From a virus, in IMG/VR virus record IMGVR_UViG_3300029266_001186, positions 1 to 40,432 of that record: a stretch of 40,432 bases of DNA; one strand, 5' to 3'. This document shows positions 5,269-24,652 of the stretch, one piece after another. Numbering within the stretch: the first letter of the stretch is position 1; every line of letters starts with the position of its first letter. Both the position numbers and the translations under genes were made by a program. The notes under the pieces are model-generated. The model did no database searches and was not told the DNA's origin. It saw only the letters and a program-made list of their open reading frames with translations.

Positions 5269-8200
5269 ATGGGCTCATTATTACAAGATGTGCTTGGACT
5301 ATTTTCCAAGAAGAAATATGTTAACCTTCCATATGAAGTAAGCAAAGATGATTATTTTGTCTTATCTACTAAAGGTGAAAGTGCATTAAATGTAATGGCA
5401 TACTTGCCAAAGGTTGAGCAACAATTAATTTCTGCAAAGCAATTTGCTGATGCTATTGTTACAGCAACTAATACAACTTATGATTTTGCTAATGCTGATG
5501 CCGGAGGTAAAACAAAACTTACTCTTACTGGATCAGATTCAACTATAGATACAGTAAATCTTGTAGGAGGAACAGGAGTAACTATTGCAAGTACAGGTTC
5601 TGATGTAGACATCAGTGTAACTCCTGGAACTTATGTAGAATGTACCGGAACTAATACAGCTTATACTATTCCTTTATGGAATTCTGATGGGACATGTAGT
5701 CTTATAGATAGTGCTATTGTATTTGATGGTAACAACATGTATACTTTAGATGCTAGTAGAAAGTTAAAAGTTAATTGGTTAGAGATGCCAGTTGGAGTTA
5801 TAAACGCATCTAATGGTACTGGGGGTGTTGGTCAAGTACTTACATCTAATGCTGCAGGAAATATAGAATGGACTACAAATGGTACAGGAAGTATGTCTTC
5901 ATGGAGAATTGATGCTGATACAGGAACTCTCCAAGTAATTACTGATGGTGATACAGTTACAATAGCCGGAGGTGTTAAGTTAAGTACTTCAGTAGCTGGA
6001 ACAACAGTTACAGCTAATCATAATGCAACAACAAGAGTAGATACAGCATCTGCAGTTTCTCCAGCAGAAGGAGGAACATTTACAGTAGTAGATACTGTTA
6101 CACAAGATGCAACAGGACATCCAACAGCAGTAAATGTTAAGACAATTACTTTGCCGGTTGGACCAGCTGGAACAGTTACTAGTGTAACAAGTGGAAGTGC
6201 AAATACAATTACAATAGGTGGTACTGCCACTGACCCAACTGTAGCAGCTATTACATCTGCTGTTACAAACGGTGGACTAAATCTAGCTACAGGAGATGAC
6301 ATATATGATTTTGTTATAGGTCTTGGATATGTTGAAAGTGTTGCTGGTGGTTTAGGAATAAATATATCAGGTACAGCAGCTGATCCTATAGTTGATATAG
6401 ATTATGCAGGAGCTGATAATGCAATAATTATTGCTCCAACAGCAACGCCAGTTGCTAGTGATTATTTATGGTTCAGTGATACTAATGATAACAGTGATAT
6501 TAAAAAAGGTTTAGTTAGTTCTTTACCTTTTAGTACTACTCAAGGTATAGTAACAACATTAACAACAAACAATACAAGTGGTGTAGCTACTTTAGCTGGT
6601 GGGGTTTTAAATATTCCAAACTATGCTGTAGGTGGTGGTGGATCAGTTACATCAGTAAGTCAAACTCACGGAGGTAATGCATTTACAGTAGGAGGCTCAC
6701 CTGTAACAAGTTCAGGAACTCTTGCTATTACAATGGCAGGTAATTCTACTCAGTATGTAAACGGAGCAGGTGACTTAATAACATTTCCTACTATACCAGC
6801 AGTACCTTTTACAAGTCTAACAACAATTGGAGGAGGAGCAGCTACTTTAGTATCAGGAGTATTAAATGTACCTACACCAGGTGCATCTGCTTTTACTAGC
6901 TTAACAACAACTGGAACAAGTGGAGTATCTACATTAAGTTCTGGAGTTTTAAATGTACCTAACTATGCTAATACACAAAATACTTTAACAACAACAGGAT
7001 CTGGTGCAGCAACCCTTAGTGGTACTGTTTTAAACATACCTACTCCGGTTATACCTTCAGTACCATTTACGAGTTTAACAACTACAGGTACATCAGGGCC
7101 TTCTACTTTAACAAGTGGAGTATTAAATATCCCTCAATATACAGGAGGTGGAGGAACTGTAACAGCAGTTACAGGAACATTACCAATCATATCAACTGGT
7201 GGAACTACACCAGCTATTTCTATTAATACTATGACTGCAGCAACTGCTGGAGCAGGTGGATTAAAAGGAGCAGTACCAGCATCAGCAGCTGGAGATCAAA
7301 CTAAATTTTTAAGAGCTGATGCAACATGGCAAACAGTACCAAGTGGATATGTTTTACCTGTTGCAACAACTGTAATTTTAGGTGGTGTTAAATTATTTAA
7401 TGATGTTGACCAAGCCGTTAATGCAAATCCTGTAACTGAACAAGCTGAAAGAACATATGGTTTACAATTAAACGGTAGTGATCAAGGTGTAATTAATGTA
7501 CCTTGGACAGATACCAATGTAGTAGCAAGTATAACAACAACTGGTACATCTGGTGCTGCAACTCTTATATCTGGTGTATTAAATATACCTAACTATGCAA
7601 CTAGTGGTGGCGGAGTAACATCAGTAACTTTTGCTTTAACTAGTGGAAATACAGTACCACTTAGTGGATCTGTAGCTGGTAATGTACTTAATATAAACTC
7701 TAATGTATATGGTGGAGGAGCTAGAGTTGGTCATGTACCACCTTCAGGTTCTGCAGGCCTGTTCTTAGAAGGTAATGGAAATTGGACATCTCCTACTACT
7801 CTTGCCGCTCAGGCAGGATGTGGTTTAACAATAGATTCATCAACAACTCCAGATACATTTGCAGTAAATTATGCTGGTACAAGCAGTGTAGTATTTTGTG
7901 CTCCAACTGCAGGAGGTGGAGAACCTACTATTGCTGAAGATTATATGATCTATCATGATAGTAAAACAACAACTGATAAAAAAGCATTATTAAGTAGTTT
8001 ATGGACACAATTTATTGCACAACCAAGTGTAATAATGCCTGTAGCATACTTTTCTGTTAATAATTTAGGTGCTGTTAATTCAGGTAATACATCATATTTA
8101 GGAACTGTAACACATGCATCACCAAGTACTGGATTATATACTGTAAATTGGACGGTGCCTATGGCAAATGTACAATACCTAGTAAACGTTACAACTGAGG

Positions 8201-8334
8201 GTCAATCATCTCAAACAGATAAAGACATTACAGTAGTTATAAGTGATAAATCCACATCATCATTTACTATATTTGCGAATGATAGCACTGGAGCAAGACT
8301 AAATGCAATGGTTAATGTTGTAATGTACAAATAA
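5269..8334 (+). CDS. Giant tail-fibre protein with repeat region, 1021 aa
   Basis: Residues 1-65 form the N-terminal module (MGSLLQDVLGLFSKKKY) shared with the products at 2910, 8358 and 39616. A Thr/Ser/Gly-rich beta region follows, with motifs seen in other phage fibres such as GTNTAYTIPLWNSDGTC and GGVGQVLTSNAAGNIEW. From about residue 425 to 780 there are six copies of a repeat of about 25 residues with consensus LTTTGTSGAATLxSGVLNIP. The last 100 residues form a distinct domain (MPVAYFSVNNLG to the end), probably receptor-contacting. It is most likely a trimeric adhesion fibre fixed to the virion by its N-terminus. No chaperone or peptidase motif is seen. Confidence 0.85.
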   Translation: MGSLLQDVLGLFSKKKYVNLPYEVSKDDYFVLSTKGESALNVMAYLPKVEQQLISAKQFADAIVTATNTTYDFANADAGGKTKLTLTGSDSTIDTVNLVGGTGVTIASTGSDVDISVTPGTYVECTGTNTAYTIPLWNSDGTCSLIDSAIVFDGNNMYTLDASRKLKVNWLEMPVGVINASNGTGGVGQVLTSNAAGNIEWTTNGTGSMSSWRIDADTGTLQVITDGDTVTIAGGVKLSTSVAGTTVTANHNATTRVDTASAVSPAEGGTFTVVDTVTQDATGHPTAVNVKTITLPVGPAGTVTSVTSGSANTITIGGTATDPTVAAITSAVTNGGLNLATGDDIYDFVIGLGYVESVAGGLGINISGTAADPIVDIDYAGADNAIIIAPTATPVASDYLWFSDTNDNSDIKKGLVSSLPFSTTQGIVTTLTTNNTSGVATLAGGVLNIPNYAVGGGGSVTSVSQTHGGNAFTVGGSPVTSSGTLAITMAGNSTQYVNGAGDLITFPTIPAVPFTSLTTIGGGAATLVSGVLNVPTPGASAFTSLTTTGTSGVSTLSSGVLNVPNYANTQNTLTTTGSGAATLSGTVLNIPTPVIPSVPFTSLTTTGTSGPSTLTSGVLNIPQYTGGGGTVTAVTGTLPIISTGGTTPAISINTMTAATAGAGGLKGAVPASAAGDQTKFLRADATWQTVPSGYVLPVATTVILGGVKLFNDVDQAVNANPVTEQAERTYGLQLNGSDQGVINVPWTDTNVVASITTTGTSGAATLISGVLNIPNYATSGGGVTSVTFALTSGNTVPLSGSVAGNVLNINSNVYGGGARVGHVPPSGSAGLFLEGNGNWTSPTTLAAQAGCGLTIDSSTTPDTFAVNYAGTSSVVFCAPTAGGGEPTIAEDYMIYHDSKTTTDKKALLSSLWTQFIAQPSVIMPVAYFSVNNLGAVNSGNTSYLGTVTHASPSTGLYTVNWTVPMANVQYLVNVTTEGQSSQTDKDITVVISDKSTSSFTIFANDSTGARLNAMVNVVMYK
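6541..7605 (+). repeat. Six-copy in-gene repeat encoding TLxSGVLNIP units
   Basis: The fibre gene encodes six diverged copies of a unit of about 25 residues with core T-L-x-(S/G)-G-V-L-N-(I/V)-P. The first copy starts near 6545 and the last ends near 7602. Copies three and four, and five and six, are the most alike. Such units form repeated beta-turns in fibre shafts. Confidence 0.8.
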
Positions 8335-8357
8335 ACTAAAAAATAAAAAACAAAGAT

Positions 8358-11300
8358 ATGAGTATCTATATACAAGAAGTTCTTGGATTATTAAAGAGAA
8401 ACAAGAAGAAGATCAAACTTGATAAAGTAAGAGATCATTTTGAGTTTGGTAAACTATATCAAAACAGTACACTAAATACTGGTGCTGTTTATAGTCCAAA
8501 GATGGAACCATTTGTAATTAAATGGGGAGACCTTGTATGTCAAGCAACTGAGGATCTAACTAGAACTCAGCCTGGTTCAGGTAACTTAGGCTTTGTTCCT
8601 GTGTATACTAATCCAGAAGGAACATGTTCATGGGATACTTTAAAAGATTCTATTATTACTCAGAATGCTATAGGTGATACTATTTCTATTGGAGGTAATC
8701 TAATAGTTAATGGTACAGCTACAGTTACTTCTTTAACAGATAACCGTATAGTTATAGTAGGCCCTGGAGGTTTACTAGAAGATGATGCTAACTTTACAAT
8801 GGATGGTGTAACTTTTACTGCTTTAGTAAATGTACAACATGGTAGCGTTACAGCATCTCCTGCTGTTCCAACAACAACTACAACTTTACATTCTAATATT
8901 ATTTTAAATGGACCTATTACAGATTCACAAGGTAATGTTGGTCAACTATCACAAGTACTTGTTGGTTTAGCTGATGGTAGAGTTATATGGGCTAATGATG
9001 ATGTGGTTGAAGCATTAACATATGGATCATTATGGCAAGGTGATGTAAACAATTTAAAAGTAGAACTAGCTGTAGGAACAGCAAATCAAATTTTAATTGC
9101 TGATGGTACTACTTTTGCATGGCAAGATAATCCTGCTGCAATTGTAGGAGAAGTATGTGATATATATAGAATTCCATTATGGACTCCTGATTCAAATACG
9201 TTAGGTTGTTCATTACTTATTCAAGATGGTAACTCAGGTACCCCGGCTACACAAGTTAAGAACGATGGTATACTACAAAATGTAGGTATAGTAAAATTAG
9301 ATAGTGTAGCACAAGATGATACACTTATACAAGTATTAGTAAGAGATCCTGCTGCAGCTAATGAAGTTAAATTCAGAGATGCGGCAACAATAATACCTAC
9401 TGTTGGTTTTGATACATTACCAATGAGCCCTACTTTAGATTGGACTCAAAACTTTTATAATGCTTTTGTTAACTTAACTACTAGTAAGGTAGGATTTACG
9501 GTTATAAAAGGTATGACCAACTTAACTGATGGTCAACAAGGTGAAGTAATTGCTGAAAATGTTTTATCTGGTACTTTGTTAACAGATGATGTTATTAGAT
9601 TTCCTGACGGATGGGGCCCAGTAGGTGGCTTATATAATAATAGAGTTACATGGACACCGGGAATAGATAATGGTTATCCAACTTCTACTTTATTATTTGG
9701 TGAGTCAGTTAAGTTTAAATATATTACTTATGCTATCCCTGGAGGTAACAGTAAAATGTTATATTGGGATGCATGTTGTAAAGTAATGTCTACCAATGGT
9801 TGTCCGGTTGCTAGTAATAGTGTGCAAACAATCAATGAAGATACAGTATTAAATAATACAGTAACTGTTGTTGATGATGGTTATGGAGGATATGGTCTTA
9901 CTTATACAGCAGTAACACAGCCTGCTAATGGAACGCTTGTCTTTAATGTAAATACTGGTGCATATACATTTACACCAGATGCAAATTGGTATGGAACAAC
10001 TTCATTTACATATTCTGCAACTGATGGATATTGTATTAGTAATATAGCAACAGTAACTATTATTGTACTTCCTATAGCAGAAGCACCTATCTGGACAAGT
10101 ACTGATCCAGTAACTGCAAATACTTATCCAAATTTAACAGGTGGTGATACATGGACATATAACTGGACAACAAATGATCCTGATCACCCATGTAATCTAT
10201 TAACATATACTTTTGCTAGTACTCCAGCTGCACCATGGTTAACTTTTGTTGATAATGGAGATTGTACTGGAACATTAAGTGGTACTTATCCTCCTACTGG
10301 TGGTAGCTATACTGTTACACTTACTGTAACTGATCCGGATTTCTTATCAGATTCACAAAGTTTTGTAATTGGTGGATTAGCTGTAACAAAAGATACATAC
10401 TTTGTAAATTGGAGTGATGTTTCAGGATCTATGAATAGTACAATTAAAGTAACAGCACAAATGTCTAGTATACCAAAGGTTTTTGCTAAATCAAATGGTC
10501 CTACAAATAATAATACTTTTAATTTTGATGTTTCTCAGCCTGATACTCAATTTGTAAGTAATCCTAATGGTACTACTAAATCTGCAGGTCTATGTGTAAG
10601 AGTTGGTATGGAAGTTAGTGGTACTGGTATTACTGCTGGAACATTAGTTACTGCAATTAACTTAGCTACTAATTCATGTACATTGGATTCTGTTAATACA
10701 TCTCCTAATAGTTCTACAACTACGTTTACAATGACTGAAGCACTTTATGTAGCAGATTATGCAGATGTAACAAACTTTAGAAACTTGTATCAAGATTATT
10801 ATCAAACTGGAGGTACTGAATCTGGTGTAGGTAATGCTGGAGGAGTTCCAAATACTAACGCAGCAACAAATGGACGTGATCAATATGATTCACATATTTA
10901 TTGGGGTCATTCTGGTGCTGAAAGGCAAATAGATATGCTTGGTAACAGAGGTCAAGGTGGTCTAGCTACTTTTTCAGGTGCAGTGAATATTGTATTTATG
11001 GGTTGGGGTGATGAATCAAGTCAATATGAATTAACAGGAAGTGGATCTGGATCATGGGCAGATAGACAAAACTCTACAGTCCCTGAAATACTAACTGATG
11101 TAAATAGTGTAAAAAATTATATTAGCACTATGGAGACAGCAGCTGGTAATAATAGTATCTATAGAGGTATATTCTTTAAAGTAAATGGAAGTACACCAGA
11201 TTTAGGACCATTATTAAATAACGGTGGTTTTGTAGGAACAGGTGGTAGAACTGCAAATGGATTCAGTGGATCTTATTTACCAGAAGCTTTAGCTTATAAT

Positions 11301-11447
11301 CCAACAACACAATCATTATTCCCTGAGTCAAGTGGAGCACCTACAAGAATAACATATTCTAGTAATGTAACCCCTGGAGCGGCACAATCAGTTTTCTATA
11401 ATTTAGTAAAAGCTGAGTTAATTGCCATTGGTTATACAACACTATAA
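8358..11447 (+). CDS. Giant fibre/adhesin with Ig-like domains and a VWA-like C-terminus, 1029 aa
   Basis: The N-terminus (MSIYIQEVLGLLKRNKKK) repeats the module of the neighbouring fibre. Residues 100-450 are beta-rich and include CDIYRIPLWTPDSN, related to TAYTIPLWNSDG in the upstream gene. Residues about 490-570 form a cadherin-like/Big_9-type repeat (TINEDTVLNNTVTV, LTYTAVTQPANGTL, ANWYGTTSFTYSATDG). Residues 575-673 resemble a putative-Ig (He_PIG) domain (SGTYPPTGGSYTVTLTVTDP). From about residue 680 a domain starts with DVSGSMNS (Asp687), the DxSGS metal-site motif of von Willebrand factor A domains, and runs to the end. I infer a host-binding appendage. The VWA assignment rests mainly on the motif, because the T and second D of a full MIDAS are not obvious. 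Confidence 0.8.
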   Translation: MSIYIQEVLGLLKRNKKKIKLDKVRDHFEFGKLYQNSTLNTGAVYSPKMEPFVIKWGDLVCQATEDLTRTQPGSGNLGFVPVYTNPEGTCSWDTLKDSIITQNAIGDTISIGGNLIVNGTATVTSLTDNRIVIVGPGGLLEDDANFTMDGVTFTALVNVQHGSVTASPAVPTTTTTLHSNIILNGPITDSQGNVGQLSQVLVGLADGRVIWANDDVVEALTYGSLWQGDVNNLKVELAVGTANQILIADGTTFAWQDNPAAIVGEVCDIYRIPLWTPDSNTLGCSLLIQDGNSGTPATQVKNDGILQNVGIVKLDSVAQDDTLIQVLVRDPAAANEVKFRDAATIIPTVGFDTLPMSPTLDWTQNFYNAFVNLTTSKVGFTVIKGMTNLTDGQQGEVIAENVLSGTLLTDDVIRFPDGWGPVGGLYNNRVTWTPGIDNGYPTSTLLFGESVKFKYITYAIPGGNSKMLYWDACCKVMSTNGCPVASNSVQTINEDTVLNNTVTVVDDGYGGYGLTYTAVTQPANGTLVFNVNTGAYTFTPDANWYGTTSFTYSATDGYCISNIATVTIIVLPIAEAPIWTSTDPVTANTYPNLTGGDTWTYNWTTNDPDHPCNLLTYTFASTPAAPWLTFVDNGDCTGTLSGTYPPTGGSYTVTLTVTDPDFLSDSQSFVIGGLAVTKDTYFVNWSDVSGSMNSTIKVTAQMSSIPKVFAKSNGPTNNNTFNFDVSQPDTQFVSNPNGTTKSAGLCVRVGMEVSGTGITAGTLVTAINLATNSCTLDSVNTSPNSSTTTFTMTEALYVADYADVTNFRNLYQDYYQTGGTESGVGNAGGVPNTNAATNGRDQYDSHIYWGHSGAERQIDMLGNRGQGGLATFSGAVNIVFMGWGDESSQYELTGSGSGSWADRQNSTVPEILTDVNSVKNYISTMETAAGNNSIYRGIFFKVNGSTPDLGPLLNNGGFVGTGGRTANGFSGSYLPEALAYNPTTQSLFPESSGAPTRITYSSNVTPGAAQSVFYNLVKAELIAIGYTTL

Positions 11448-13184: not shown

Positions 13185-14831
<1,647 letters not shown>

Positions 14832-19197: not shown

Positions 19198-19309
19198 TTT
19201 TTGGATTTTCAATTATATCAAGCTTTTGTTGAAGTTTTTGTATTGCTAATATAACTTCAGGTGTTTGATGTACTTTTTCTTTATACAATAAGATTGTCTG
19301 TGATATCAT
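19184..19309 (-). CDS. Small helical protein overlapping its neighbours, 41 aa
   Basis: A 41-codon frame starts at an ATG inside the end of the large paralogue gene and ends just inside the nuclease gene. The product (MISQTILLYKEKVHQTPEVI onward) is a charged helix with a leucine/isoleucine pattern (LAIQKLQQKLDIIE) suggestive of a short coiled coil. It fills a gap otherwise left between two densely packed genes, overlapping by 29 and 14 bases. That makes translation plausible but not certain. Confidence 0.4.
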   Translation of the reverse strand: MISQTILLYKEKVHQTPEVILAIQKLQQKLDIIENPKNEKK

Positions 19310-20513
19310 CAGTCTCAAGTCCTTCTGTTTTTGCTTGCTCATTTTTTTCTATTATTAAATTATTTAGTAAGTTATCTTTTAATCTTAAGTCTGACAAGTT
19401 TATTGCAAATACTTCTGCTGTTTTACCAATTAAAGAATCCAGAACAACTCTCATTAATCTTTCTCTTGTATGATCTAATGCAAATTTAGTTAATTTATTG
19501 TCATCAATTAAACTCTTAATAAAGTTATTATAGGGCCAGATTGATGTTTGATTACCACAATTAGAATATTTTTCTAGTCTCCTTCTCATTGCTTTTACAT
19601 TAACACTGTTCCAGTTATCTGTATCCTTAAGCCAATCATAGTTCCAATAATATACACTACTAACAACATCAAAAGATTTTTCCAGGTTACAGTTTGCTAG
19701 CATTTCTAAAGCTAAAGATCTGTTTTGCCTATCATTACTTTTAACCATTGCTTCAACATTATTATACTCACTATTTTCTATAGTAGCCAGTTCTTCATCA
19801 ATTATAGCTGTGATGGCTGTATCATATAATATAGTCTTAGTAGACAATGCATCTAATATACCTTGATAAGTTGGAGCATCTGATTCATGTAAAACAATAT
19901 CTCTACTACCAGGAACAGTGACATTATGTTTTTCATACATAACATCAACAAAACTTTTAAAACTATCTGTTATATCTTGAGTTTTTGCACCTTGATTATA
20001 ATTGTAAGGTATATTAACACGTACCATTAAATCTTTATCTAATGAATTAACCATCTCTCTAGCTTTATCCAATGCAGCATCAGATAACAGAGATGCATTT
20101 TTAATATCTGTCAAGAATTCAAAGAATAATTTGAATGGAACACATTTATTCCACTCACAATCAAATAAATCATTAAAAAACTTTTCTGATACTATATGAA
20201 CATCAGCTTTTTGTGGATCTCTTATAACTTTACAGTTATATTTCTCTTTAAGTAAGTCCACTTTTTGTCTAGGTAAATCTAGTTTTGGAAATCTATATAG
20301 AGTCTTATCTTGTATAGTGAAAGTTTCTGTTGGTTTAAAATCAATACCAATCTCTTTTCTTTCTTCATGTCCTATGTGCCAATTGCTTGTGTTGCCCATC
20401 CAGTATCCATCAAAATTATATTCAATACCGGATGAATGTAACTTAGCAGTTTTACCTGTACCTATTACATTCTCATCTCTAATCTGAAATGATATTACTA
20501 GTTTTTTTTTCAT
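19281..20513 (-). CDS. Large unknown protein of the MoxR/VWA cassette, paralogue 2, 410 aa
   Basis: I recognise no named family, but the protein resembles its upstream neighbour (20479-21558). Both carry a segment F/I-x-x-P-K-x-x-x-x-x-x-(V/R)-x-x-(L/A)-K-E-(K/H)-x-x-x-(V/I), followed by x-x-A-D-(V/L)-(H/I)-I, and later an IIDEELA/IMDEQLL helix followed by a SLALEML/ALALKII helix. It starts with beta strands (KKLVISFQIRDENVIG) and a YWMGNTSNWHIGHEERKEIG segment; the rest is mainly helical. It is encoded directly after the MoxR ATPase gene and its paralogue, so it is likely a partner or substrate of the ATPase. The start overlaps the previous gene by 35 bases. Confidence 0.65.
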   Translation of the reverse strand: MKKKLVISFQIRDENVIGTGKTAKLHSSGIEYNFDGYWMGNTSNWHIGHEERKEIGIDFKPTETFTIQDKTLYRFPKLDLPRQKVDLLKEKYNCKVIRDPQKADVHIVSEKFFNDLFDCEWNKCVPFKLFFEFLTDIKNASLLSDAALDKAREMVNSLDKDLMVRVNIPYNYNQGAKTQDITDSFKSFVDVMYEKHNVTVPGSRDIVLHESDAPTYQGILDALSTKTILYDTAITAIIDEELATIENSEYNNVEAMVKSNDRQNRSLALEMLANCNLEKSFDVVSSVYYWNYDWLKDTDNWNSVNVKAMRRRLEKYSNCGNQTSIWPYNNFIKSLIDDNKLTKFALDHTRERLMRVVLDSLIGKTAEVFAINLSDLRLKDNLLNNLIIEKNEQAKTEGLETDDITDNLIV

Positions 20514-21558
20514 TTGTATTTTTTAAGTATTGTTGATATTCTTTTTTTACTGCCACCTTAAATGTATAAAGGTCTCTATTGTGTATACTAATCTCTTTCC
20601 TTACTATAGGTTCTAAGTATCTAAAAGTTGTTTTGCATAACTTCTCTTCTTTTTCTAACCATAGTATCATGTCTTGTGCACTTCTGTTCTCAAATGATCT
20701 GAAATTAGATGCTTCAATCCAGTACTGTAGATCTTTATCTCTATTATCTGCATATGTTATTTGATTACAATTTTTAGCAAATTGCCATAGTAAATGATAA
20801 TTTGTTTTATAACATATACTAGGGATAATTTTAAGAGCTAAAGCTTTATCATCACTTGAAGAACAAAGTTGTCTATCAAGATCTGCTAGCAATTGCTCAT
20901 CCATAATCATCTTAGATGCAGAACTATGTAGTACTGTCTCAGCGTCAATAACACTCAACTGTGTAGTATCTATAAGATGAGCTATATTTAATGCCATACC
21001 TGTGAGCATCCATTCATCATAAACACTACTTTCTATATCTAAATCATAGTATCTCACCTTTTCAGTTAATCTACTAGTTATTAGAGTTGGAACACTTGAT
21101 TTAAAAATTGCTAATTCAAAAGGGTGTGTAGCTGTATTACGGCCTCCAGTAGTTTCATAGTTCCATAACTTTGCCATCATAATAGTACTGGGTATATTAT
21201 CCCCATTACATATCTTATCATATGGCGTTATATCACCATGACCTATAATTAGATCAGCTAAGTCAAAATTATTTGTTACAGATATATTGTGCTCCTTAAG
21301 AGCTGCTTTTAATCTATCTTGTGATACACTGCACTTAGGTAATATAAAAGCTTTCTTTTTGGTTCTAAAAGTTGTACCATCTTCTGTAGGTACTGTTAAT
21401 ATAGTGTGTATTTTCTCATATGTTGTTTGATCTTGAGTACATAATACTTTATTTACCTCACCAGAACTAGAAAGGACACCATAAACAGTGTCCTTTTCTA
21501 ATCCAAAGTAAGTTAAAGCATCAGTATCAAAATCTTGATATACTGATTTATTTGCCAT
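20479..21558 (-). CDS. Large unknown protein of the MoxR/VWA cassette, paralogue 1, 359 aa
   Basis: The protein starts MANKSVYQDFDTDALTYFGL. It has an N-terminal alpha/beta domain (KKAFILPKCSVSQDRLKAAL and NFDLADLIIGHGDI) that aligns by eye with paralogue 2, followed by a largely helical domain containing KMIMDEQLLADLDRQL and ALALKIIPSICYKTNYHLLW. No nucleotide-binding or nuclease motif is seen. It starts one base after the MoxR gene, so it is translated from the same transcript. The order metallopeptidase-VWA, MoxR, paralogue 1, paralogue 2 suggests one protein machine. Its function is unknown; a scaffold or adaptor is inferred from context. Confidence 0.65.
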   Translation of the reverse strand: MANKSVYQDFDTDALTYFGLEKDTVYGVLSSSGEVNKVLCTQDQTTYEKIHTILTVPTEDGTTFRTKKKAFILPKCSVSQDRLKAALKEHNISVTNNFDLADLIIGHGDITPYDKICNGDNIPSTIMMAKLWNYETTGGRNTATHPFELAIFKSSVPTLITSRLTEKVRYYDLDIESSVYDEWMLTGMALNIAHLIDTTQLSVIDAETVLHSSASKMIMDEQLLADLDRQLCSSSDDKALALKIIPSICYKTNYHLLWQFAKNCNQITYADNRDKDLQYWIEASNFRSFENRSAQDMILWLEKEEKLCKTTFRYLEPIVRKEISIHNRDLYTFKVAVKKEYQQYLKNTNEKKTSNIISD

Positions 21559-21559
21559 C

Positions 21560-22831
21560 CTATTTCATTGTCATTTTAATTATTGCTGGGTTCATCATAA
21601 GTTTATTAAACTTTTGTTTATTACCATTGAAGATAGTTCTTATCACTAAATACTTTAGATCATTTGTAAAGTAATCTTTAGTAGCTAATGAATTAATTCT
21701 ATCTGTAATTTTTGTACTTATAGTATTTTCTTTAGAATATACTACAGCATAATTACCTAATCTTGTTGCTAAAGTAGCAGCAATATCAGCACGGTATGTA
21801 TCATCTTGACCAATACAACTTCTAAGTTCACCTAAAATATATGATTCATTTTCATGAGTCAATAGATCTTTTGGAGAAACTAACTTGTCAAGTTTGTTAT
21901 TGATAAATGTAGTAAACATAGAAGCAAATGCATCTCCTACAGAACCTTCACCAATCATTTGTATTAGTGCTAAGTTATCTTCAAACTTCTCAAAACTAGA
22001 GATAGAATTAAAGAACGTTGTAATAGATCTTGCATTAGTTTCTTGCGTTACTAATTCCGGGTGCAGCAACAAGAAGTTAATACATCTTGAATCTATGCCA
22101 GCACCTTCCGCCCACTCAGCCCACACGTTAACATCAAACTTAAGATTAGCAGTTACATATCTAGTCTTCTGTGCACTATCTACACTGTTAACCATATAGT
22201 CTCCGTTATCTGGATTTGCTGTTAGCATAATATGCCAGTCTTTTGGTAATTTCCATGAGATATAAGTCTGACGGTCTATTAATTCCATAACTGCTTGAAT
22301 AAATCTTGTGTCAGCTCTATTCCAGTCATCTAATAATAATATACCACCTGCTTTTTTATCTGCAATCCATTCAGGTGCACAATAAGACATTCTATTCTTA
22401 CCTGTCATTTTATATCCGGTCTTCAGATAATGTTCTACAGCAAGCTCATCAACCCACATACCTACTTTCTTAATTGTAGTGCTTGGCATTTTAGCCAGGT
22501 CAGATGATGCAGCTGTTCTTTGTGCCGCAGTATAAGATATGTCATCAATTTTCTTAGCAGCTACAGTTTTTTCCTTATACATTTGGAACTGTCTTACTGG
22601 AAAACCTACTAGGTCACCTAATTCTTCTATCTGTGCTAGGTTTAACTTTACAAATTCTAAGTTGTTGTCTTTTGCAAGCTCAACTATTGTTGAAGTTTTA
22701 CCAATACCTGATTCTCCTACAACTTCTACAGATACAGGACCCTTCCCATTACTCTGTAGATATCTATTATTTGTTATTATGTGATTTACAAAACCTTTTA
22801 ACTCTGTTACATTTAAATTTACTTGTGCCAT
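21560..22831 (-). CDS. MoxR-type AAA+ ATPase
   Basis: The 423-residue protein has a clear AAA+ core: Walker A GESGIGKT (39-46, Lys45), Walker B ILLLDDWNRAD (Asp168, Asp169), and sensor 1 in IMLTANPDNGDY (Asn206). The LxDxxNRA form and the N-terminal position of the core match the MoxR branch. MoxR ATPases typically work with VWA-domain proteins to remodel or activate other proteins, as in RavA-ViaA and NorQ-NorD, and N4-like phages carry a related pair. Here the VWA partner gene ends 8 bases upstream. The C-terminal 200 residues form a helical domain. Confidence 0.9.
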   Translation of the reverse strand: MAQVNLNVTELKGFVNHIITNNRYLQSNGKGPVSVEVVGESGIGKTSTIVELAKDNNLEFVKLNLAQIEELGDLVGFPVRQFQMYKEKTVAAKKIDDISYTAAQRTAASSDLAKMPSTTIKKVGMWVDELAVEHYLKTGYKMTGKNRMSYCAPEWIADKKAGGILLLDDWNRADTRFIQAVMELIDRQTYISWKLPKDWHIMLTANPDNGDYMVNSVDSAQKTRYVTANLKFDVNVWAEWAEGAGIDSRCINFLLLHPELVTQETNARSITTFFNSISSFEKFEDNLALIQMIGEGSVGDAFASMFTTFINNKLDKLVSPKDLLTHENESYILGELRSCIGQDDTYRADIAATLATRLGNYAVVYSKENTISTKITDRINSLATKDYFTNDLKYLVIRTIFNGNKQKFNKLMMNPAIIKMTMK

Positions 22832-22838
22832 TTTTTTA

Positions 22839-24002
22839 TTAATTTAATTTAATTACTTTTCCTGGTAACTCATCATTTACATCTGATATACTGCTTAAAC
22901 ACCATAAGGTATTTTTTGGACAGTTCTCAGGTGGATATGCTTCACCATCTGTTAGATATACTAGAGCTGTATAAGCTCCTTTATTTTCATTAAAATGATC
23001 TATAACTGGTTGAAATGATGTACCACCTCTACCATGTATTTCCCAATCTTTTTTAGGATTGAATTCTTCTACAGTTCTAAGACTAGTATCACACTGTGCT
23101 ACTGATATCTTATGTCCTGTTTTAGACATATGTGCTAACTCACTAAAGAATTCCTTTAGCTCTTCATTATTTACAGATCCTGATGTGTCAACACCAACAA
23201 GGATATGATTCTTAAACTTAATCTTCAGTCCCGGATTAGCTGCATAACGTTTGTTATATTTACGTCTCAGCTTTTTAGTATATATAATACTAGAATTCCC
23301 AACAAATCTTCTTAAGTATGCTTTCCAGTCAAATTTAGCTGGCTCTATATGCAAAAGTCTTCTTATAAGATCAGATAACTCACCAGGTACACTACCACAT
23401 CTCTTCTCAGTAGTTTCAGCAGCTTGTTTTAATTGGTGCTCTACCTGCTTTTCCATTAGTTTTTTCTCTGGCTCAGACATATCATCAAAATCATTCCATG
23501 TACCATGACAGTATTGTGATTCACCATTCATCTTATCCATTAGACTATCTAATGAAGGACAGGTCCCATCCTGTTGTGCTTGTTCTAAAAGCTCATAATA
23601 CTTTTTAGTACCTGCTCTTTTAGGTAATTGTAACTCAGGAAAACTACTCAACAACAGTCCACCGTCTGGCAGCTTGCTTTCATTTATATATTGATTTATC
23701 TCTAGATCTGCTGCTATATTAAATAGTTTGTGATCAGTATATAAATCTCTCAATAATAAATGTCCAAATGCTATATGTAATAGCTCATGTTTAATCAAAC
23801 CAAATCTGTGGTCTTCACTTAAATTGTTGTAGAATTCTGGGTTTATAGTCAACTGCATACCAATACCATGTTTACTTACTCCTGCTGTAGGAATCTGTTC
23901 ACTATAAGTCTTATTGATACCAATTAAAAAAAGCCCGTAAAAGGGCTCTGTAAATATTAGGTTCTTGGTTGTTCTAGCAACCTGATCTTGTATGTTAATC
24001 AT
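22839..24002 (-). CDS. VWA domain protein with N-terminal metallopeptidase-like domain (DUF2201 type)
   Basis: The 387-residue protein has a DUF2201-type N-terminal domain: EPFYGLFLIGIN, then IPTAGVSKHG, FGLIKHELLHIAFGH with the zinc-peptidase HExxH motif (His72, Glu73, His76), and FNIAADLEINQYI. A charged linker (about 170-260) follows, then a VWA domain with the MIDAS motif VGVDTSGS (272-276), the conserved Thr in GRGGTSFQP (328), and YLTDGEAYPP (Asp352). Proteins of this architecture are typically encoded next to MoxR ATPases, as here (8 bases apart). A strong terminator-like hairpin lies inside codons 18-26. The ATG at 24002 is kept because the conserved family segment starts at about residue 15. 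Confidence 0.9.
   Translation of the reverse strand: MINIQDQVARTTKNLIFTEPFYGLFLIGINKTYSEQIPTAGVSKHGIGMQLTINPEFYNNLSEDHRFGLIKHELLHIAFGHLLLRDLYTDHKLFNIAADLEINQYINESKLPDGGLLLSSFPELQLPKRAGTKKYYELLEQAQQDGTCPSLDSLMDKMNGESQYCHGTWNDFDDMSEPEKKLMEKQVEHQLKQAAETTEKRCGSVPGELSDLIRRLLHIEPAKFDWKAYLRRFVGNSSIIYTKKLRRKYNKRYAANPGLKIKFKNHILVGVDTSGSVNNEELKEFFSELAHMSKTGHKISVAQCDTSLRTVEEFNPKKDWEIHGRGGTSFQPVIDHFNENKGAYTALVYLTDGEAYPPENCPKNTLWCLSSISDVNDELPGKVIKLN
23926..23949 (-). terminator. Terminator-like hairpin inside the start of the VWA gene
   Basis: The reverse strand reads AGAGCCC, loop TTTTAC, GGGCTTT with a total run of seven T (A-run at 23926-23932). The stem is seven pairs with one G-T wobble. It lies in codons 18-26 of the metallopeptidase-VWA gene, so it would cut off MoxR and the downstream genes unless read through. 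Confidence 0.6.
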
Positions 24003-24288
24003 TTCTCATTATTTTATCTAGAATTTCATTATAGATTTGATCCATGCGTTCTGAATCTATATAAGCATATATTTTAATAGTGTCTGTATGATAATGAAAT
24101 GATATTGCATCACCAAAATTTCTTCTATTTTTAAATACTAAAGCTTTATGCATTAATGTATCCATCATCATATCTTCAGGATAATTATTCTTATATATAT
24201 GCCAGGCAACTTGTTGATCTTCTTTTGATCCTGACAGCATTTCTTTTAATCTAAAAAACTCCTCAATTGTTATTATTTTCTTGGTCAT
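23995..24288 (-). CDS. Hypothetical protein, 97 aa
   Basis: This short protein starts MTKKIITIEEFFRLKEMLSG and has a helical, charged front half, an ALVFKNRRNFGDAISFHYH segment, and a C-terminal helix (RMDQIYNEILDKIMRND). No family is recognised. The start lies 26 bases inside the RusA-like gene and its stop overlaps the VWA gene start by 8 bases, so it is part of the same translationally coupled run. Its location between the resolvase-like gene and the MoxR/VWA cassette does not decide which it belongs to. Confidence 0.6.
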   Translation of the reverse strand: MTKKIITIEEFFRLKEMLSGSKEDQQVAWHIYKNNYPEDMMMDTLMHKALVFKNRRNFGDAISFHYHTDTIKIYAYIDSERMDQIYNEILDKIMRND

Positions 24289-24652
24289 CTTTTAATATTT
24301 CTATCCATACTCCCGGTTTATCTTTATCATATGTATACTGTACAAAAACAGGTAGTATAAATTCTGCATTATCATCTTCTATCCACCCTGCTTTAACCAT
24401 ATCATCTTGCACGGTCTGTGCAGGATTTATATAGTCAAACTTATGGCGGCTGCCTCTGACAAATGTGAAAGATATTTTTGCTGGTAATGAATGTTTAGCT
24501 AGCTCAGCTTTAAACTCTTCTGCATGTTTTGCATAATAATCTTTAGCTATCTTTCTATAATTCATTACAGCTTTACTAGCTATAAAGTATTTTCCTGTCC
24601 ATCTACGGCCATTCTTACTACTGGGAACTGATCCTGGTATCCACCATTTCAT
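24263..24652 (-). CDS. RusA-like Holliday junction resolvase
   Basis: The 129-residue protein follows the RusA pattern: an IPGSVPSSKNGRRW start (V-P-x-S-K-N element), a helix of the length seen in the family, SFTFVRGSRHKFDYINPAQT with the metal-binding Asp73, and MVKAGWIEDDNAEF with the acidic pair Asp93-Asp94. RusA dimers cut four-way junctions and act in phage genome resolution before packaging. In the usual D-x-D-N element the second Asp appears to be Ile here (DYIN), so activity may differ or the alignment may be shifted. It lies between the primase and the MoxR/VWA cassette. Confidence 0.75.
   Translation of the reverse strand: MKWWIPGSVPSSKNGRRWTGKYFIASKAVMNYRKIAKDYYAKHAEEFKAELAKHSLPAKISFTFVRGSRHKFDYINPAQTVQDDMVKAGWIEDDNAEFILPVFVQYTYDKDKPGVWIEILKDDQENNNN

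Follow-up and report, generated by a model that had tools for sequence, protein, structure and literature searches.

Several described systems pair a MoxR-type AAA+ ATPase with a protein that carries a VWA domain. In NorQ/NorD, the MoxR ring remodels via its VWA partner to act in the insertion of metal into an enzyme, and the docking of the two is structurally established, with a finger of the VWA domain entering the NorQ pore (PMC13036017). Jumbo phages (group 2.2) encode a MoxR ATPase together with a vWA domain fused to an N-terminal metallopeptidase, a pair with a suggested part in the assembly and processing of virions (Iyer et al. 2021, PMC7824862). In N4-like phages (Schitoviridae), MoxR and DUF2201-VWA genes are adjacent or near-adjacent. 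Some systems have further components. In the MoxR-vWA ternary systems, one or more additional proteins enter the complex, and segments of the added protein diverge fast (Kaur et al. 2020, PMC7159879). Acidianus two-tailed virus (ATV) combines p618/p892 with p387, p653 and p800, and p387 and p892 raise ATPase activity (PMC4124505). Here, we describe a cassette of this kind in an uncultured virus, IMG/VR record IMGVR_UViG_3300029266_001186, whose whole 40,432-bp sequence we call the window. Its MoxR and VWA genes stand in one run with the genes of three proteins that we call P97, P359 and P410.

We establish the gene content and order of this cassette, the paralogy of the partners, the conservation of the catalytic motifs and the fast divergence of the partners. 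The cassette genes probably encode one machine rather than four unconnected proteins. Our best explanation, which we put at about 50%, is that P97, P359 and P410 are dedicated partners of one ATP-driven remodelling or processing machine with MoxR and VWA, acting during replication. The original prediction, made from the window's sequence, had also proposed one machine; the conserved cassette of paralogous partners speaks for it, although the genes number five and not four, since P97 belongs to them too. It had further held that MoxR-VWA pairs are known from bacteria and N4-like phages and that no description of the two larger partners was known, and had suggested that they may be adaptors, substrates or activities that the ATPase switches on. 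The pair, in its metallopeptidase-VWA form, is already known from jumbo phages as well (PMC7824862), and what is new is the dedicated partner family.

The jumbo-phage pair has the same two-protein core as the cassette, but the available portion of its description mentions no P97/P359/P410-like partner (PMC7824862). The cassette also differs from it in lying in a replication module, in having DD in the Walker B motif and in the additional residues that separate the Walker A and B motifs of its MoxR. Among the matches listed, the N4-like DUF2201-VWA proteins are ~22-30% identical to the window's VWA, and no P359/P410 homologues were found around them. The ternary systems (VMAP, iSTAND) are similar in that MoxR and vWA have a required extra component, with rapidly diverging alpha-helical parts in the VMAP protein (PMC7159879). 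However, they are bacterial conflict systems in which the vWA protein is itself fused to effector domains; the cassette lacks such a fusion, and its partners are several and stand in tandem. No VMAP or iSTAND domain turned up in general Pfam scans of P359/P410 family members, Pfam's coverage of both being unchecked. The ATV system likewise joins virus MoxR and VWA to further virus partners, but it belongs to an archaeal virus, acts in tail development and has no peptidase domain (PMC7824862). For NorQ/NorD, P-like partners are not reported in the available text (PMC13036017).

The gut crAss-like phages cr10_1 and cr115_1 have a replication module of the same kind, and in it a CobS-like MoxR with a neighbouring gene (L255:23003-25133; L257:23040-24994). 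This MoxR is of another subgroup and lies before the primase, and DUF7192 replaces DUF2201 (shown for cr10_1). Profile hidden Markov models (HMMs) of P359 and P410 found nothing in cr10_1 or cr115_1, and gp09, gp10, gp58 and other gut crAss proteins showed no relation to them. The CobS-like MoxR (with DUF7192 in cr10_1) is a possible functional equivalent of the cassette pair. The proteins after MoxR-VWA in Moorella phage MTATph1 and Bacillus phage AR9 were set aside as not homologous to P359/P410. In AR9 (L080:8360-10204), MoxR gp028 and VWA gp029 are followed by gp030 and gp031, which are mutual paralogues (hhalign probability 98) and unrelated to P359/P410.

The partner family and its predicted fold

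Searches of Pfam, PHROGs and PDB sequences gave P359 and P410 no family match of useful significance, and none of 50,697 phage records matched either. PDB sequence searches with P359, P410 and their joint N-terminal segment gave nothing usable, and sub-threshold matches to PTS_EIIB and phrog_34374 ('pilot protein') were discarded. Their relationship to each other is not visible in pairwise BLASTP, and a first profile comparison (probability 11) did not settle it. With about 105 members each and columns restricted to the window sequence, the global hhalign score of P359 against P410 is 20.5; by comparison, 60 column shuffles reach 13.4 at most, the reversed profile scores 4.3 and none of seven control families exceeds 7.1. 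Broader alignments give a global probability of 84 (P 9e-7), with 13 control families at 6.3 or below in local mode. The result is alignment-dependent: with insert columns stripped, the global probability is 11, the score still lying above all shuffles. The P359 HMM also recovers the P410 of locus L346, collinearly and at 6e-5, among 22,857 open reading frames (ORFs).

The small protein P97 aligns to the start of the P410 helical domain (hhalign probability 91, P 1e-6). Its profile, run against the other 35 window proteins tested, has P359 (4e-4) and P410 (0.03) as its top two matches. A bridging copy is found in locus L424, where an additional 342-aa gene (Px) lies between P359 and P410. It is matched by the P359, P410 and P97 HMMs at 1e-7, 5e-36 and 5e-7, and by BLASTP within its own locus it matches P410 (2e-18), P359 (1e-5) and P97 (6e-4).

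The models agree with the profiles. AlphaFold2 (AF2) gives predicted local distance difference test (pLDDT) scores of 86.8 for P359 and 84.7 for P410, and in both models the elements of the helical C-terminal halves, and those of a beta-alpha-beta segment near residues 68-108, come in the same order. From profiles and models together, P359 and P410 are genuine, if distant, paralogues, as the original prediction had said; the profile similarity, the HMM cross-matches and the L424 copy all point the same way. Profile search and structure prediction, which it had suggested for both proteins, thus yield collinear homology and no match to a characterised family. Judged by the profile matches, P97, P359 and P410 make up a single, expanding family of partners, and because P97 is homologous to the other two, members of one family flank the VWA-MoxR pair on both sides.

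We use 'BRCT-like' and 'HEAT-like' as descriptions, not family memberships. Foldseek searches of the two models against the PDB returned nothing significant: the match of P359 to the BRCT domain of PARP1 has a probability of 0.93 and a root-mean-square deviation of 1.6 over 42 columns at E 0.46, and the BRCT match of P410 is weak. PF00533 (BRCT) is weakly matched by 11 of 45 P359 members (0.03 or worse), the PDB sequence search gave no BRCT match, and HEAT/ARM matches in Pfam and Foldseek are scattered and weak. Against BFVD, the P410 model has four significant structural matches (E 1e-9 to 1e-5, probability 1.00, 11-15% identity), all to uncharacterised proteins: A0A8S5QMV2 (crAss-like ctYsL76), A0A6J5LXR8, and A0A8S5TL70 and A0A8S5TKB2 (both Podoviridae ctz6O13). 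Two of the four belong to one podovirus, so other phages probably have such paired relatives too.

Many DNA-transaction proteins contain BRCT-like or helical-repeat domains, which favours an alternative in which P359 and P410 are clients, that is, replication or recombination scaffold proteins matured or disassembled by MoxR/VWA, like the enzymes of NorQD and CbbQO. The position of the cassette between a RusA resolvase and an exonuclease in the replication module fits this as well, and MoxR-VWA pairs often serve a specific enzyme: NorQD acts on nitric oxide reductase, and another pair is a rubisco activase (PMC9976466, PMC4660213). On the other hand, tandem duplication to P97/P359/Px/P410 suits partners better than one enzyme, and a client would be expected to be as conserved as other replication genes, whereas P410 and P97 diverge fastest (see below). 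We therefore regard the client account as doubtful.

Conservation and divergence of the cassette

We compared 477 loci, which overlap and repeat contigs and contain about 185 distinct P359 sequences. Many were seeded by P359 or P410 queries, others by MoxR or VWA queries. Both P359 and P410 are present in every locus in which MoxR and VWA are followed by 3.5 kb or more of downstream sequence (375/375), and the MoxR-seeded and VWA-seeded loci agree in having both partners. Partners without MoxR occur in two loci only, both contig ends, and P359 and P410 were not found outside cassette loci. P410 is present in one copy per 108-120 kb contig, within the cassette; a second match in G002 lies at the opposite contig end, and one more match in G008 is weak. 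The gap between P359 and P410 is 100 nt or less in 103 of 103 distinct loci, some other gene pairs of the module being equally tight.

The most divergent locus, L420, is of particular value. Its MoxR is 64% identical to the window's, and its P359 has a BLASTP match over 77 residues only (30%). Save for a 137-aa gene between VWA and MoxR, it keeps the order RusA - P97-like - VWA - MoxR - P359 - P410. Its flanks are SNF2 before, and a w30824 homologue and uracil-DNA glycosylase (UDG) after; DnaG and the exonuclease are not in its 12.4 kb. L420 is a single contig, for which misassembly is possible. Together with the loci seeded by MoxR or VWA, it is stronger evidence for a unit than gene order; the tie of RusA to the cassette in L420 is an association only. 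Conserved order across viral contigs, which the original prediction had named as support for one machine, is borne out. The paralogues were neither widespread without MoxR/VWA neighbours nor matched to an unrelated characterised family, the two outcomes that the prediction had named as contrary to it.

Several points weigh against a dedicated machine. Synteny extends to the whole replication module, with DnaG upstream and the exonuclease downstream in 278 of 278 testable loci. In most of the clade, common descent would by itself keep the genes adjacent, so that conserved order alone is weak evidence within it. Partial distance correlations show no special coupling within the cassette (VWA-P359 ranks 9 of 120, P359-P410 24 and MoxR-P359 62). 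The stretches compared around the MoxR/VWA pair of the more distant phages S-TIM5, MTATph1, SP-076, K64-1, Ettore and DSS3phi2 hold no such partners, and hence the pair can work alone. Moreover, contact of the partners with MoxR/VWA, their target and proteolysis are matters that we purely infer.

Synteny of the whole module and the lack of excess rate correlation are also what one would expect if P359 and P410 were bystanders, ordinary replication factors co-transcribed by chance with an unrelated MoxR/VWA pair. Yet the block is retained in L420 despite its changed flanks, and P97, across VWA, is of the same family, leaving the motor genes flanked on both sides. We consider chance co-transcription unlikely.

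Divergence is uneven across the cassette. Over the 63 loci having all 16 module genes, the median pairwise divergence is 0.15 for MoxR, 0.23 for VWA, 0.47 for P359, 0.69 for P410 and 0.74 for P97; that is, P97 and P410 are the fastest of the 16 and P359 is fourth. The median identity of P410 is 62% in the BRCT-like segment, 52% in the first part of the helical domain, 19% in the middle and 21% at the N-terminus, and in the partners generally the middle regions rank with the most variable segments. This strong asymmetry, above all between the middle and the BRCT-like part of P410, could point to a host-directed machine, in which a motor with fast-changing partners dismantles or cleaves proteins of host defence or replication, its partners keeping pace with a target that changes. 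The diversifying ternary conflict systems offer a parallel (PMC7159879). However, the cassette is found in every testable locus and in the core replication module, whereas anti-defence genes are patchy, and no exchangeable cassettes were seen. A host-directed role is thus unlikely.

Layout, catalytic core and proposed mechanism

The genes of the cassette and the adjoining resolvase are listed in table 1.

Table 1. Cassette genes and the neighbouring resolvase gene, with positions in the window.
Feature	Position	Strand	Basis
VWA: DUF2201-type, N-terminal HELLH metallopeptidase domain and C-terminal VWA domain with full metal-ion-dependent adhesion site (MIDAS), 387 aa	22839-24002	minus	Pfam and motif conservation
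MoxR-type AAA+ ATPase, 423 aa, Walker A GESGIGKTS, Walker B LLLDDWNRAD	21560-22831	minus	phrog_1297, hhalign, motifs
P359: partner without family; N-terminal BRCT-like beta-alpha-beta segment (~68-107), variable middle, helical C-terminal half	20479-21558	minus	AF2 model, weak Foldseek BRCT matches, domain conservation
P410: partner without family, distant P359 paralogue, layout as in P359	19281-20513	minus	AF2 model, collinear homology, BFVD structural matches in other phages
P97: small protein, related to C-terminal helical domain of P410/P359	23995-24288	minus	hhalign and profile search
RusA-like Holliday junction resolvase	24263-24652	minus	Pfam RusA 2e-5, phrog_1682 1e-19

The four-gene run originally placed at 19281-24002 is correct in that all four ORFs lie there on the minus strand. 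Its description as a coupled run holds for the tight spacing: VWA and MoxR are 7 nt apart, MoxR and P359 1 nt, and P359 and P410 overlap by 35 nt, the corresponding medians in about 104 distinct relatives being 8, 1 and -4 nt. The run is longer than described, its fifth member P97, which shares an 8-nt overlap with the start of VWA, having been missed. The VWA-MoxR gap exceeds 100 nt in 14 of 103 distinct loci. In some loci a MGRYYSGDIEGKF... protein of 128-137 aa, with no Pfam match, is encoded between VWA and MoxR (L047:6309-6695, L198:7592-7978, L420:7085-7498).

The VWA protein matches DUF2201_N (3.7e-19) and DUF2201 (4.7e-17) in Pfam, both past the cut-off; a PDB sequence search with it gave nothing usable. 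HELLH occupies residues 72-76 and the MIDAS consists of DTSGS 272-276, T328 and D352. H72, E73, H76 and all MIDAS residues are invariant in a 33-row alignment, and the HExxH of the family is retained in seven distant phages. HExxH and a complete MIDAS thus stand in a single protein, the combination foreseen from the sequence. PHROG 1314 and many phage records label this DUF2201 metallopeptidase-VWA family 'HNH endonuclease', which is probably a misannotation. In L198 (5540-6650), a 1,110-bp insert interrupts the VWA gene within the HELLH codons and carries a LAGLIDADG ORF (5763-6599, PF14528 6.5e-8). With the flanks joined, the protein is again 387 aa long. One of the two possible joins has T at the exon end and G at the insert end, like group I introns; Rfam found no intron family in L198.

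MoxR matches phrog_1297 ('ATPase') at 2e-35, its Pfam matches being weak and all below the cut-off, and hhalign aligns it to the CobS-like MoxR of a gut crAss phage with a probability of 96. In a 26-row alignment, Walker A and the sensor/Arg-finger motifs are invariant. So is the DD that replaces DE in Walker B of the clade's MoxR, where nine compared MoxR-type proteins have E, and the distance between Walker A and B is enlarged by extra residues. The E-to-D change is conservative and the other features are present, so the MoxR-type assignment of the original prediction stands with this reservation, backed by phrog_1297, Walker A and the neighbouring VWA protein. Given the DD and the enlarged distance, ATP hydrolysis may be slow. 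In L424 (7705-8714), about 1 kb interrupts MoxR just past Walker B and holds an ORF (7718-8473) that is GIY-YIG endonuclease-like by eye; this insert is a probable intron.

A machine with dedicated partners could work as follows. By analogy with NorQD and from general knowledge of the family, MoxR would form an AAA+ ring on which the VWA domain docks, and the fused zincin domain would supply a possible protease. P97, P359 and P410 would scaffold the machine and recognize its target. P359 and P410, made coupled beside the motor, may form a complex via their helical C-terminal domains, while their variable middles could bind a phage or host target at the replication/recombination stage. In cycles of ATP hydrolysis, MoxR would then pull on the VWA/partner complex, so that the bound protein is remodelled or exposed to cleavage by HELLH. 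A more specific version can be offered only tentatively: an AAA+ protease/chaperone of several subunits, not described before, in which the MoxR ring and VWA-metallopeptidase are programmed by tandemly duplicating adaptors of BRCT-like and helical-repeat type and act on phage or host DNA-replication complexes.

Phage lineage and wider meaning

Named by its replication genes, the window appears to belong to a crAss-like lineage, not placed in a family. The best annotated matches of its DnaB are mostly crAss-like phages, and the order DnaB - Sak4 - DnaG - RusA - exonuclease is common to the window and to the Crassvirales cr115_1 and cr10_1. Relatives are found on contigs mostly up to ~120 kb. 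Three of them (L235, L236, L237) lie on contigs binned in bacterial metagenome-assembled genomes (Pseudomonadales, Campylobacteraceae); as these contigs are possibly mis-binned, they are not host evidence. Four human-faecal records titled 'Bacteriophage sp.' that match MoxR/VWA were set aside because they resemble bacterial DNA.

Elsewhere in the window, a phage-encoded GroEL (13185-14819, phrog_5725 7e-174) lies near the DNA polymerase gene; chaperonins have been reported from uncultured marine viruses (PMC5332604). Two plus-strand genes at 5269-11447 encode proteins of 1021 and 1029 aa that match no PHROG; the former has repeated TTGTSG...TLSSGVLNIP-like motifs and is fibre-like by eye.

MoxR-VWA machines are widespread. 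The lineage described here is never seen without a tandem partner family beside the motor, and this makes the question of their clients in phages testable: the cassette offers five co-expressible proteins, for which complex formation is predicted. It also puts a name to a conserved gene set that had gone unannotated in a large, uncultured group of crAss-like phages.

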